Source: a virus. Taken from it: DNA of 25,848 bases. The notes beneath the pieces are model-generated. The model had not been told where the DNA came from, did not search any database, and saw nothing but the letters and a program-made list of their open reading frames with translations. Below, in pieces: positions 444 to 14,657 of the stretch. The stretch lies in IMG/VR virus record IMGVR_UViG_3300025120_008508, positions 1 through 25,848 of that record, one strand, 5' to 3'. A program made the position numbers and the translations under genes. Positions within the stretch are counted from its first letter, which is position 1. Every line of letters begins with the position of its first letter.

Positions 444-1375
444 TTAAACTGTACTCCAGCCATTATCTCAGTTAAGCACGCTACGGTATTTAGTTCGTGG
501 TCAGCAACAAAGGAATCTTTGTATTGATAATCAGCCAGAATAAGAACAAGTTGAGGTATAGAATGAGGTTCAACATACTCATTCATATGATCGTATAAGC
601 CACGGAAGATGGCAACAGTATCAATATCCATACTATCGACTACCCATCTTCTCATACCTTTAAAGTTTTTAGCCTTTAAGTGTTTTACAAGATCGCTGAA
701 GTTATCTGATCCTCCGGTTGATTGATCACTAGTAATGACACCTGCACCAAGTGCTTGTCGTTGACACTCGTTTAAAACTCTACGCCAGTCTGGAGCATGT
801 TTCATTATAATATCAGCTGTACCTTTTTGATCAGCTGTTATGCCTTCTGTCTCTAATATACTAGACAGTTTTTTATGAAACTGCGCAGCTAAGGCAGCCA
901 TATCTTTCTTTGATGTATTGAACTCATATACACCACATCGTGAATGTAGAGGTTCAATAATTCTATTCTTGAAGTTACATGTAAGTATAAACCTACAGTT
1001 ATTTGCAAACTCTTCAATGAATCCCCGTAAAGCTGGTTGTGTAGATTGGGGGTTAAGATAGTCAGCCTCATCGAGGATAACTACCTTAACGCCACCGGTC
1101 AACGATACACTCGAAGCAAACTGTTTGATCTTGCCTCTTAGTGTATCGATGTTGCCTTCCTCTGAGCCGTTAATAATAATATGATCTAACTCAAGTTCAT
1201 TACAAAGAGCCTTAGCCACAGTAGTCTTACCCAGACCAGCTGTACCTGTCAGCAACATATTAGGTAATTCACCTTTGTCAACAATTTGCAGAAACGTCTG
1301 CTTTAAGGAGGGAGGAAGGATCGTTTCTTCTATTGTCTTCGGACGATACCTTTCGACCCAGAGAAAGTCATTCAT
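440..1375 (-). CDS. 44: Clamp loader large subunit gp44 (AAA+ ATPase)
   Basis: 311 aa, close to T4 gp44. It is the ATPase subunit of the sliding-clamp loader, which opens the gp45 ring and places it on primer-template DNA. Visible motifs: an RFC-type N-terminus (VERYRP, 7-12), Walker A GTAGLGKT (44-51), Walker B VVILDEAD (98-105), sensor 1 LTCNFKNRI (131-139) and the SRC arginine-finger motif (145-147) typical of RFC-like loaders. The ATG is at 1373-1375, 15 nt after the stop of the 79-aa ORF. The stop overlaps the start of the halogenase gene. The partner subunit gp62, which follows gp44 in T4, is not found in the window. Confidence 0.96.
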   Translation of the reverse strand: MNDFLWVERYRPKTIEETILPPSLKQTFLQIVDKGELPNMLLTGTAGLGKTTVAKALCNELELDHIIINGSEEGNIDTLRGKIKQFASSVSLTGGVKVVILDEADYLNPQSTQPALRGFIEEFANNCRFILTCNFKNRIIEPLHSRCGVYEFNTSKKDMAALAAQFHKKLSSILETEGITADQKGTADIIMKHAPDWRRVLNECQRQALGAGVITSDQSTGGSDNFSDLVKHLKAKNFKGMRRWVVDSMDIDTVAIFRGLYDHMNEYVEPHSIPQLVLILADYQYKDSFVADHELNTVACLTEIMAGVQFK

Positions 1376-11580: not shown

Positions 11581-12129
11581 TTATTTTAACTCAAATGATG
11601 AAAATCTAAATGTCGCAGGAAACGTAATATACTGAACATCACCACTAGTAGATTCTAATGTCATATCTCCAAGACTAATAGGTAAGCAATCCAAATATTT
11701 TATAGTCCTAGTAACATTGTTGTGGCTACTTAATATAGACAATGTAAGATCTGCTGTAGTAGCAGGCTTATCTGCTAGTCTGTTTGATGGTATTGTTTCA
11801 TTTGTTTCCACTAGTCTAGTCATCCAGTTAAACATTTCAGTGTATGAATTTAAATTTTCGTCTACTATAATCATACACGTTAATTCAGCAAAGGTCAATT
11901 TATCTCCGGCAAAAGGTACAGAAGAAATCCGTTTAAATGGTACTTCTACAGGATTCATTTGCAAATTGGGATGCAATACTGTCTGTGCAAAGAACTCTAG
12001 GTTAGCATAATGCTTCCTATCGATAGTCAATTTAAAAGCTGATGGCTGCAAATAGTTAAGGTTATTCAACCCAGACGAGCTTGAAGCAGAACTAGCAGCT
12101 ACTGTAATAGTTTGATCTAATGTCGGCAT
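11581..12129 (-). CDS. gp19-like tail tube / baseplate tube paralogue
   Basis: 182 aa. The Ser/Ala-rich N-terminus (ASSASSSSG) precedes a domain that follows the gp19 pattern of this same phage. Segments match in order: AFKLTIDRKHY versus LFKATINFPGY, then EVPFKR..FAGDKLTF versus IVPFRGR..MAGDRTF, then IIVDENLNSYTEMFNWM versus IINDTDFNVRDAMERWM. T4 has gp19 relatives, gp48 and gp54, that cap the baseplate and start the tube; this may be such a protein or another virion component. A consensus late promoter (12160-12167) is about 30 nt upstream of the ATG, supporting a late structural role despite the recombination neighbours. Confidence 0.75.
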   Translation of the reverse strand: MPTLDQTITVAASSASSSSGLNNLNYLQPSAFKLTIDRKHYANLEFFAQTVLHPNLQMNPVEVPFKRISSVPFAGDKLTFAELTCMIIVDENLNSYTEMFNWMTRLVETNETIPSNRLADKPATTADLTLSILSSHNNVTRTIKYLDCLPISLGDMTLESTSGDVQYITFPATFRFSSFELK

Positions 12130-12262: not shown

Positions 12263-12514
12263 ATGAATTTCCAAGAAAAATGCAAAATCGAAGATCAAGT
12301 TATTGATATGTTTCGTACCGCAATTACATCCTGGAGTAACATGGATATTAATGAGGTTGATGGCATTAACTGGAATTATGTAGATTCTGATATTCACATT
12401 GGTGTTAAAGAAGCTGGTATCGAATTGGGTTTTAATCTTGATGATTTTGTAGAAAGTCTAATTAGTGAGTACCTTGAGTTTGGTACAGTCGAGTCAAATA
12501 ACATAGCAGCATAA
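12263..12514 (+). CDS. Acidic 83-aa early protein, function unknown
   Basis: One of only two credible plus-strand ORFs in the window. AAGGA (12251-12255) lies 7 nt before the ATG, and a host-type promoter is just upstream, so expression should begin early. The protein is very acidic: I count 17 Asp/Glu against 4 Lys/Arg. It has no membrane segment, one Cys, and likely mixes helices with a short beta part (INWNYVDSDIHIGVKEAG). I do not recognise a family. Small acidic early phage proteins often bind and inhibit host enzymes or mimic DNA, but this is only a general possibility. Confidence 0.82.
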   Translation: MNFQEKCKIEDQVIDMFRTAITSWSNMDINEVDGINWNYVDSDIHIGVKEAGIELGFNLDDFVESLISEYLEFGTVESNNIAA

Positions 12515-12532: not shown

Positions 12533-12571
12533 AAATTAACTGTTGACTTTATAATAACAATGGTGTATGTT
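12533..12571 (+). promoter_or_regulatory. Sigma70-type promoter for the structured RNA
   Basis: TTGACT (12543-12548), 17-nt spacer, TATGTT (12566-12571). The -35 neighbourhood is a near-copy of that at 12192-12208, and GCATAGG again starts 5 nt after the -10 (12576-12582). The -10 itself is weak (4 of 6). Predicted start is A12578. Confidence 0.7.
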
Positions 12572-12577
12572 AATAGC

Positions 12578-13122
12578 ATAGGTTGAGGAAATAAGATAAA
12601 TGATTTGATTATATTCTAAGGACATAGACAGTGCTAGTAGGTTCTTCCTAATGAATTGAAAGCTAGGTCCAAACAAGGCGATTAGGAGCATACTAGGGAA
12701 CTGACCCAGACCAATATAAATTCAGGTCATTGTCAGAGTTAATTCCCCCCTAGTGTGACTGGAGTTTGGCTATACATGTAATGGCTGGGGGATGGTTAAT
12801 TGGAGAGAAGGCCATTAAGGTTGGTTGGCGCACAGTGAAGTTCTCGATATATGAGTGTGCGATAGTATCTAGGACAGAAAAGTTCCTAGGCAAGTTGGCC
12901 TTCTCTTCCTTTTAAACTATTTTGATCAGCGTCCGTACAGAGAGAACCGGACTTGAACAGACCACCCAGCGCGCAGGAGCTTCTGTAAGCACGGGTGCTA
13001 GTTTCATCAAACTATACGTAGGCTTTACAATAGGGACCATCCGAAGTAGAGAGTAGATACGACACTGGGGCGATGGAGATACTAGGGGCGCTGATCTAAG
13101 TAGTTTAACAAAGGAGAGAAAA
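12578..13122 (+). ncRNA. Large structured untranslated RNA, unclassified
   Basis: About 545 nt without a credible ORF on either strand, between a promoter and a 33-aa ORF. It holds many complementary pairs. Stems are: CTAGTA 12634-12639/12691-12696; TCCTAAT 12646-12652/12681-12687; GACC 12709-12712/12725-12728 under CTGAC 12701-12705/12732-12736; AGAGAAGGCCA 12804-12814/12896-12906; CGCACA 12829-12834/12856-12861; CTAGGA 12869-12874/12884-12889; TTAAACTA 12912-12919/13101-13108; GATCAGCG 12924-12931/13089-13096; and TAGTTT 12999-13004/13009-13014. The 11-bp stem encloses two hairpins as a three-way junction, and the last long-range stems close a domain of nearly 200 nt. I find no tRNA, tmRNA, RNase P or group I intron signature. 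The size and ornate folding recall phage-borne ROOL and GOLLD RNAs, but I cannot assign it to either. A role as an origin transcript beside uvsY is another option. Confidence 0.7.
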
Positions 13123-13224
13123 ATGAATATGTGGTTTGAAACACAAGGTATGGCAATGGCATTATATAACTATCGTATAAACAGAGAAAAAGAATTAATA
13201 GCATTGTTGAAGTTGATGCAATAA
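13123..13224 (+). CDS. 33-aa peptide ORF at the 3' end of the structured RNA
   Basis: ATG at 13123 with AAGGAG (13111-13116) 6 nt upstream, ending TAA at 13222-13224. It reads MNMWFETQGMAMALYNYRIN, then a charged amphipathic end (REKELIALLKLMQ). The ribosome site lies directly after the 3' strand of the RNA's closing stem (13101-13108), so folding could affect access. It is too short for family recognition. The stop overlaps the U-run of the opposing gp23 terminator. It may be a genuine microprotein or part of the RNA gene; the strong ribosome site favours translation. Confidence 0.6.
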   Translation: MNMWFETQGMAMALYNYRINREKELIALLKLMQ

Positions 13225-13248
13225 AAAAGGGCCACCCGAAGGTAGCCC
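13223..13248 (-). terminator. Rho-independent terminator of the gp23 transcript
   Basis: On the minus strand an 8-bp stem GGGCTACC/GGTGGCCC (one G-U pair) capped by a TTCG tetraloop (13237-13240) is followed by six T. It lies about 60 nt past the gp23 stop, ending the capsid operon before the plus-strand island. Confidence 0.9.
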
Positions 13249-13258
13249 AGTTTAAGTT

Positions 13259-13288
13259 GGGAGAGGTTAAACCCTCTCCCTTTTTTTT
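13259..13288 (+). terminator. Rho-independent terminator of the plus-strand RNA/33-aa unit
   Basis: GGGAGAGG (13259-13266) pairs with CCTCTCCC (13273-13280) and is followed by eight T (13281-13288). It is a textbook intrinsic terminator, placed between the plus-strand unit and the gp23 stop. The opposing transcripts overlap by up to 66 nt here. Confidence 0.92.
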
Positions 13289-13310: not shown

Positions 13311-14657
13311 TTATGTTAAGATATTGTCTACGCGGAAGATTCTGTAGTACTGGTTTGTACGAACAGCTGCTAGACCGTCTGCAGGTGCTGCACCTACATA
13401 TGGGTTTGACGCCATGCCATACCGAGTTTTGAACCCGATACGTGGCTGGAAGTCATTCTCACCAACTGCACGGACCATAGTTAATGGTACGTATGGGCAA
13501 TAGAATACACCTGCGTCATATGGGTTTGAACCCTTATAACCTACAGTGATGTAATCTGTGCTTGCATATGGATCGATGTATACCCGAGTCCGACCGTTAA
13601 GAACACCAGCAAATGTATTGCCTGTGTCATCTACGTTCAAGTTTGTTGACAACGCAGGAGCGTAATCCAACATACCAGAAGCTGCAAGTGCTGTTGCAAC
13701 ATCAGACGAACAGATAACCATGTTACCTTTACCACGCCTGGTTTCTTTAGCAATTACGTTTGCTTCGCGGTCAAGTTGTACACCTAGACCTTTGAACTTC
13801 TCAGCGGACCAACGACCATCGGCATCGCTTGACAAGTTAAAGATACCTTTTACAGTTACGTTAGCTTGACGTGCACCAACCTTAGCTTGTGAGTTGATTG
13901 TACGAACAACCTCACGGTTAATTTCAGCCAAGATTTCTGTTGACAAGATATTTGCCAATTCTGTCTCTGCATCCAAACCATGAATTGCTTTCAAGTCTTG
14001 AGCTAACTCAAGTGTGTATTCTGCCTTCAAAGCACGTGACTTAGCTGTCACGGTTGACTTTTCGATGGTGAAACCCATCTCAGCAAATGCTTCACCTGTG
14101 CTACCCAAAGCTTCAGCTTCAGTTGTAGAGTATGCATCACCTGTTGTTGGTACATAGCTTGAACCTGAGTCAACAATTGAACCAGCACCGTCTGTATCAG
14201 CTACACCAGCAAGACCGGATGGTCCTTCTGATCCACCTGAAGAGGTTGCTGAGTCACCTGAGTAGTTGACGAGTGCTTCGTTAAACAACGCTTCAGTGTT
14301 TGTGTCTGCACCAGCTTTAGATGATTTGTAACGTGATTTCATTGCAAAGATCAGGCCTGTTGGACCTGACATTGGCTGAACACCACAAATGTCGTATGCC
14401 ATTAGGTTTGGCATTGAACGACGAACGAGTGAGATAAGGATTGGGTTCCAGTTGTCAGCATTACCTGTTGCAACAGTACCGGCTCCGGCAGCGTTAGCTG
14501 CTGTCTCTTGTAAACCTTGCTCACGCAGGGCTTTTTCTGTGTTCTCCAGAACAGCAGCTGTTACTGAACGCTTGTGGGCGTTTTCGATAGTACCAGCTGA
14601 TTCTTCGTTAAGTACTGGAGACCATTTCTCTACGAGACGATCATATGTTTGTTCCAT
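13311..14657 (-). CDS. 23: Major capsid protein gp23
   Basis: 448 aa, shorter than T4 gp23 (521 aa) but normal for marine relatives. It forms the hexamers of the prolate or isometric head. The N-terminus (MEQTYDRLVEKWSPVLN) is the scaffold-binding pro-region. A match to the gp21 cleavage rule (L/I-x-E) is LQE at 49-51, so the mature protein probably starts at Thr52. The HK97-type core includes WNPILISLVRRSMPNLMAYDICGVQPM and the C-terminal FKTRYGMASNPY segment typical of the family. A Gly/Ser-rich section (about 130-175) is probably the insertion loop. It is the last gene of the virion block and is closed by a strong terminator. Vertex gene 24, next in T4, is absent here. Confidence 0.97.
   Translation of the reverse strand: MEQTYDRLVEKWSPVLNEESAGTIENAHKRSVTAAVLENTEKALREQGLQETAANAAGAGTVATGNADNWNPILISLVRRSMPNLMAYDICGVQPMSGPTGLIFAMKSRYKSSKAGADTNTEALFNEALVNYSGDSATSSGGSEGPSGLAGVADTDGAGSIVDSGSSYVPTTGDAYSTTEAEALGSTGEAFAEMGFTIEKSTVTAKSRALKAEYTLELAQDLKAIHGLDAETELANILSTEILAEINREVVRTINSQAKVGARQANVTVKGIFNLSSDADGRWSAEKFKGLGVQLDREANVIAKETRRGKGNMVICSSDVATALAASGMLDYAPALSTNLNVDDTGNTFAGVLNGRTRVYIDPYASTDYITVGYKGSNPYDAGVFYCPYVPLTMVRAVGENDFQPRIGFKTRYGMASNPYVGAAPADGLAAVRTNQYYRIFRVDNILT

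Follow-up and report, generated by a model that had tools for sequence, protein, structure and literature searches.

RNA-A, a new family of structured RNAs with exchangeable interiors in uncultured marine T4-like phages

The plus-strand island between gp19 and gp23

The window, i.e. the whole stretch of DNA analysed here, belongs to a T4-like myovirus; it is a 25,848-base IMG/VR contig. Its minus strand encodes gp23, the gp19 tail tube, portal, sheath, scaffold, protease, uvsY and a helicase. By gp23, the nearest isolates are phage C48C1 (66%) and Pelagibacter phage HTVC008M (60%). The gap between gp19 and gp23, both on the minus strand, holds a plus-strand island with an ORF, an RNA and a short ORF, in agreement with a sequence-only reading of the window that had described a break in the otherwise all-minus gene order. 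The following features were assigned:

11581-12129, minus: gp19 tail tube (PHROG 45)
12263-12514, plus: 83-aa ORF with its own promoter-like site, in the gp19-gp23 gap
12543-12571, plus: promoter-like site TTGACT-17-TATGTT, 5' of the RNA unit (from sequence)
12578-12912, plus: leader, unsupported as structured or conserved
12913-13107, plus: predicted RNA-A copy
13123-13224, plus: putative 33-aa ORF with AAAGGAG upstream, outside P1 (from sequence)
13229-13280, both directions: two terminator hairpins, one per direction, closing the plus-strand unit and gp23 (from sequence)
13311-14657, minus: gp23 (PHROG 138)

The TGTTGACTT context of the promoter-like site at 12543-12571 also lies 5' of the 83-aa ORF. 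The same reading had given the RNA a promoter of its own, and the site at 12543-12571 fits that description, but promoter-like sites are about as frequent in the window as in shuffled sequence (10 found, 8.5 expected). Relatives of the 83-aa ORF occur in contigs L010 and L011, again at the gp23-gp19 gap, while a search for relatives of the putative 33-aa ORF returned none. Neither ARAGORN nor Rfam detected a tRNA in the window. As the reading had stated, no credible ORF crosses 12578-13122, and 12913-13107 contains no ORF of more than 60 aa.

The reading had further proposed that the 545 nt from 12578 to 13122 form one large structured RNA, a claim that held for the 3' part only. The complete stretch folds with a z-score of -1.66. 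The 195 nt of 12913-13107 reach -3.33, with none of 200 shuffles folding equally well, whereas the 335 nt of 12578-12912 reach only -1.06 and were equalled in stability by 15 of 100 shuffles. Since the two halves fold so differently, the long-range stem 12912-12931/13089-13108, already recognized in that reading, was taken as the true RNA boundary; it corresponds to helix P1 of the conserved family presented below. The 11-bp stem 12804-12814/12896-12906 is present as sequence complementarity, and chance folding is a possible account of 12578-12912. The sole homologue of this leader was found in L093, which belongs to the same phage species (99.96% identity to the window over 14.4 kb). Neither of the RNA models built here, for RNA-A and for RNA-B, matched the leader, and its interpretation as RNA-B or as a second RNA-A was rejected.

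Membership and fold of the RNA-A family

RNA-A was found via a relative on contig L010/L083, located between gp23 and gp19, in which two short conserved strings were recognized. Pattern scans of IMG/VR with these strings yielded 67 distinct RNA-A sequences on about 100 contigs, the carriers being uncultured marine T4-like phages. The covariance model R1, built from an alignment that left out the window copy, matched the window at 12915-13105 with 60.9 bits (E 9e-13; E-values of R1 and R2 are rough). On this sequence evidence, 12913-13107 is almost certainly a member of RNA-A, a structured RNA family not described before. The relatives are 140-220 nt long, the window copy about 195 nt. Its elements on the plus strand are:

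12914-12931: P1 5' arm, pairing with 13089-13106 (covariation; site-specific sequence)
12932-13088: interior (payload), 157 nt, 100% identical to the L086 copy before tRNA-Trp
12998-13002: P4 5' strand CUAGU, pairing with ACUAG at 13081-13085 (covariation)
13005-13008: P5 5' strand CAUC, pairing with GAUG at 13072-13075 (covariation)
13017-13020: P6a CGUA, pairing with UACG at 13058-13061 (window-clade covariation)
13023-13028: P6b CUUUAC, pairing with GUAGAG at 13046-13051 (window-clade covariation)
13072-13075: P5 3' strand GAUG (covariation)
13081-13085: P4 3' strand ACUAG (covariation)
13089-13106: P1 3' arm (covariation)

A seven-helix structure was scored on alignment A2, which comprises 23 of the 67 RNA-A sequences. 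Standard pairs fill 97.5% of the pair cells, and both-side changes occur in 21 of 44 pairs, with 82 such cells; none of 500 shuffles reached any of these values. When the partners were slid, pairing dropped to 31-43%; as the sequences are related, significance is overstated by the shuffles but not by the slid controls. Within P1, both-side changes affect nine pairs, and pairing stands at 99.7%. In the window clade, which consists of four window-type sequences, 99.3% of the positions pair in comparison to 28-53% in the controls, and these four sequences separately support P1, P4, P5, P6a and P6b. The compensatory changes that the sequence-only reading had proposed to look for in homologues are thus present in the terminal stem and in the inner stems of 12913-13107; the loss of these stems, or an origin from a decayed protein gene, was not observed for this part.

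P1 measures 18 bp, usually with a U-U mismatch, and its sequence is specific to the site. P2, whose family form is GUGY/RCAC, is accompanied by a small inner stem and changes from GUGU/GCAC to GAAC/GUUC in L191; in the window it is imperfect (GUAC, one mismatch in the R1 alignment). P3 is an optional hairpin of highly variable length. P4 (UUAGU/ACUAG; core UAGU/ACUA), P5 (CAAUC/GAUUG) and P6 (GCGGC/GCCGU) make up one arm, and in the window type P6 is replaced by the longer P6a/P6b. P5 of the window, CAUC/GAUG, covaries with CAAC/GUUG and CAAUC/GAUUG in relatives. In the main type the arm ends in the fixed loop AAYGUCAAUAAG, and among the unpaired letters UCC, AAA, GGAGAUA and GGG hardly vary. 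The nested P4/P5 was preferred over a hairpin UAGUUU/AAACUA plus pseudoknot, which was considered first and rejected for lack of both-side changes. The fixed loop (A2 columns 99-110) is complementary to TTGACATT, a -35 type element ahead of genes of these phages, which is probably a coincidence. A short form retains P1 and P2 and is missing the P4-P6 arm (L088, L092 and L328); it stands in tandem with a long copy in L121 and L164. Short copies were located at L121:5901-5994 (minus), L164:420-530 (minus) and L329:714-801 (plus).

RNA-A has no match in Rfam 15 at gathering or relaxed thresholds, and no family matched the RNA itself even at E<=10, in line with the earlier view that this untranslated structured RNA belongs to no class that can be named. 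At relaxed thresholds, tRNA and tmRNA were the only families matched in the relatives. The window RNA was not recognized as tRNA or tmRNA by ARAGORN or Rfam, and the Rfam group I and group II introns did not match RNA-A. It was absent from 50,697 phage records (INPHARED, BLAST), had no match among plasmids, and exact-pattern scans of GTDB genomes for hosts found nothing; isolates were searched by BLAST, and R1 was run on three named phages. Several weak signals were discarded: Ysr49-like Rfam matches in the window are located on terminators, a match in HTVC008M (E 1.4) falls inside a coding gene and was attributed to chance, and a match of L084 to the first DNA pattern was judged by eye to be a reversed tRNA T arm that mimics the pattern.

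Genomic sites, gain and loss, and exchange of interiors

Of the 36 contigs positive for R1, 35 have a single RNA-A copy, among them contigs of 275, 204, 183 and 178 kb, although single copies on such fragments represent a lower bound. The exceptional contig among the 36 and L121 have, adjacent to the long copy, a further short one. A multi-copy repeat was therefore rejected, one copy per contig being the rule. RNA-A lies on the strand of its neighbours and starts right behind the upstream stop codon, often 0-7 nt 5' of P1. Its 3' side is occupied by a small gene or tRNA in some copies and by a terminator or new promoter in others; in 10 of 67 cases a tRNA (Trp, Pro or Asn) begins 3-7 nt downstream. 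Eleven distinct copies lie near gp23, always on the other strand from gp23 and gp19. Only 1 of the 80 nearest gp23 loci carries RNA-A, which is therefore dispensable.

The interior of RNA-A is exchanged as a whole between stems. The 157-nt interior of the window is 100% identical to that of L086, which is sited before tRNA-Trp, while 6 and 5 edits (11 of 36 letters) separate the P1 arms of the two copies, whose stems both still pair. The sole match shared by the rest of L086 and the window comprises 64 bp at 75%. Likewise, L131 and L133 have an identical 187-nt interior; their P1 arms still pair despite 5 and 3 edits (8) between them, and a neighbouring stretch shows just 71% identity. Mis-joined assemblies are an unlikely source of these cases because each of the differing P1 stems still pairs. 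In the tree of the interiors, copies from gp23, tRNA and other sites are interleaved, with support limited by its 114 columns. We conclude from the sequences that RNA-A has changed genome sites while its core stayed the same; to our knowledge, no phage RNA has been described in which intact cores are exchanged between differing stems.

Sites without the RNA were also found. L002 is missing the whole P1-to-P1 unit present in L096, and the joined flanks are about 86% alike. L315 keeps a bare hairpin, GACTCTTTTCTGCAGAAAGGAGTT, at 648-671 (plus) where L281 has RNA-A; at this site the RNA may have been either lost or not yet received. Taken together, the sequences show gain and loss of RNA-A, varied sites and the swapping of complete interiors.

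A second unlisted structured RNA, termed RNA-B, is about 136 nt long (...GGTACCG..AACCC..GATAAGGGGAGGGGCACTGCAGAAAGTCCCTCCCACGAAA) and often lies directly 5' of RNA-A. Its copies were located at:

L328:1261-1396, plus: RNA-B
L213:182-316, minus: RNA-B
L086:12457-12591, plus: RNA-B
L187, L222, L239, L317, L323, L329, L339, L164, L095, L133 and L163: further RNA-B copies

Both-side changes occur in 8 of 25 predicted pairs of RNA-B, which has no match in Rfam and was not found in the window. Two contigs with RNA-A also carry a phage-borne permuted tmRNA of the alphaproteobacterial type (L252:1973-2366, plus; L213:6599-6949, minus). A 68-aa protein (MRTVHYVGM...), encoded at L159:2322-2525 (plus) and 73 other loci, is often found directly 3' of RNA-A or tRNAs; it has no Pfam match, and among phage isolates it has one weak relative, in Pseudanabaena phage Pan1.

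Possible role and comparison with known RNAs

The most probable explanation is that RNA-A is an autonomous trans-acting phage RNA, to which we assign a probability of roughly 55%. It would be transcribed together with neighbouring genes or tRNAs, and the 18-bp P1 would insulate and delimit it. P1 is probably also the place of transcript cleavage, in the manner of the long terminal stems of rRNA precursors. P2, the optional P3, the P4-P5-P6 arm and the fixed single-stranded letters together make up the interior, which would be the working part and would target a factor of the host or phage in trans, irrespective of the identity of the adjacent gene. An autonomous, trans-acting unit is the simplest reading because the core stays while neighbours and stem change, and from this we infer release at P1, stability and action in trans. 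The dispensability of RNA-A, the P2 mismatch in the window and the frequent 68-aa neighbour count against it.

Part of the data also suggests a role in cis, in which P1 hides the Shine-Dalgarno sequence (SD) of the following gene and places it close to the upstream stop codon, so that translation is coupled or gated by the fold. GGAG lies within the P1 3' arm of 28 of the 67 copies, and in 25 of these a start codon follows 3-5 nt past P1; among the 39 copies without this GGAG, a start codon is so close in only 5, and several of these are doubtful cases ahead of tRNAs (Fisher 2e-10, uncorrected for relatedness). The P1 5' arm changes in step with the GGAG-containing 3' arm, so the letters that pair with the SD covary and the stem is kept even where the SD is masked. 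The stop codons shortly before P1 and the frequent adjacency of the 68-aa gene point in the same direction. However, the window and most other copies have no GGAG in the P1 3' arm; their SD lies outside P1, or a tRNA, terminator or fresh promoter follows. No constant gene class, as expected of a riboswitch or leader, was found downstream among unrelated genes, tRNAs, terminators and promoters, and even the commonest neighbour, the 68-aa gene, has R1 hits at 30 of its 74 loci and none at 44. A cis element is on balance unlikely. Somewhat more doubtful is a mobile RNA-coding unit lacking its own protein, whose interior inserts into or swaps between GACTnTTT...AAAnAGTC hairpins and persists by transfer from phage to phage, not by service. 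The same interiors in different stems and sites, the empty hairpin GACTCTTTTCTGCAGAAAGGAGTT of L315 as compared to the occupied site of L281, the clean absence from L002 and the tandem long and short versions agree with this proposal. Yet there is one copy per contig as a rule and no copy burst, no target duplication was seen, and the expected type of empty hairpin occurs in L315 only, where a deletion between TGCA repeats would explain it equally well. Homologous recombination between conserved ends could equally swap interiors, and the strong structural conservation argues for selection on RNA-A. Its specific form, in which the site supplies the stem as a socket while the RNA core, as an exchangeable payload, enters pre-existing hairpins and is moved between phages without its own protein, is a little less probable again; such a payload would possibly move by its own catalysis or by hairpin-guided phage recombination.

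A new class of catalytic RNA, self-cleaving or otherwise, that trims phage transcripts for example between genes and tRNAs appears very unlikely. UCC, the loop AAYGUCAAUAAG and GGAGAUACUAG are nearly invariant and unpaired beside variable stems, and RNA-A sites adjoin tRNAs, but Rfam ribozyme and intron families gave no match, and some copies are the last element of a transcript, with a terminator following at once, so that cleavage would be of little use there. We give practically no weight to a decayed protein gene or a chance structure; the latter might apply to the leader, but neither finds support in 12913-13107, with its compensatory changes throughout and its lack of a longer ORF. Membership in ROOL or GOLLD, of which the size, phage location and early-type promoter had reminded the sequence-only reading, and for which the phage location and elaborate fold speak, is equally remote: no Rfam match reached the gathering score, none to these families appeared at E<=10, and about 195 nt stand against several hundred, with a different closing architecture.

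RNA-A is a directly testable candidate for a trans-acting RNA, given that its core is conserved, its boundaries are clear and both loss variants and core transplants occur naturally. According to a 2010 review of post-transcriptional control in T4, no small trans-acting T4 RNA had been characterised, and related genomes were hoped to suggest candidates (PMC3014915); RNA-A is a candidate of this kind.

Among known systems, GOLLD and ROOL resemble RNA-A as structured RNAs of unknown role in phages and uncultured samples but are several times larger. The manA and wcaG motifs occur in T4-like cyanophages and marine metagenomes, in the 5' UTRs of particular gene classes (PMC2864571); RNA-A, in contrast, has no particular gene class downstream, and neither family matched in Rfam. 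RNase III processing stalks are long terminal stems that delimit a mature RNA within the rRNA precursor, and the resemblance of P1 to them is anatomical only. The nearest setting is that of RNAC and RNAD (species 1 and 2 RNA) of T4, stable RNAs whose roles are unknown (PMC3014915; PMC9697503). They are likewise small and structured (139 and 119 nt), occur in a T4-like phage with one copy each and adjoin a tRNA-Arg, as RNA-A often lies beside tRNAs; RNA-A is sometimes next to a second structured RNA, RNA-B. Homology was rejected, since R1 had no match in the whole T4 genome at E<=10. RNAC ends in a tRNA-like T arm that is absent from RNA-A, and RNA-A moves between loci, its window copy lying beside gp23 in a window without a tRNA. 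The relationship to RNAC and RNAD is thus one of likeness, not of membership.
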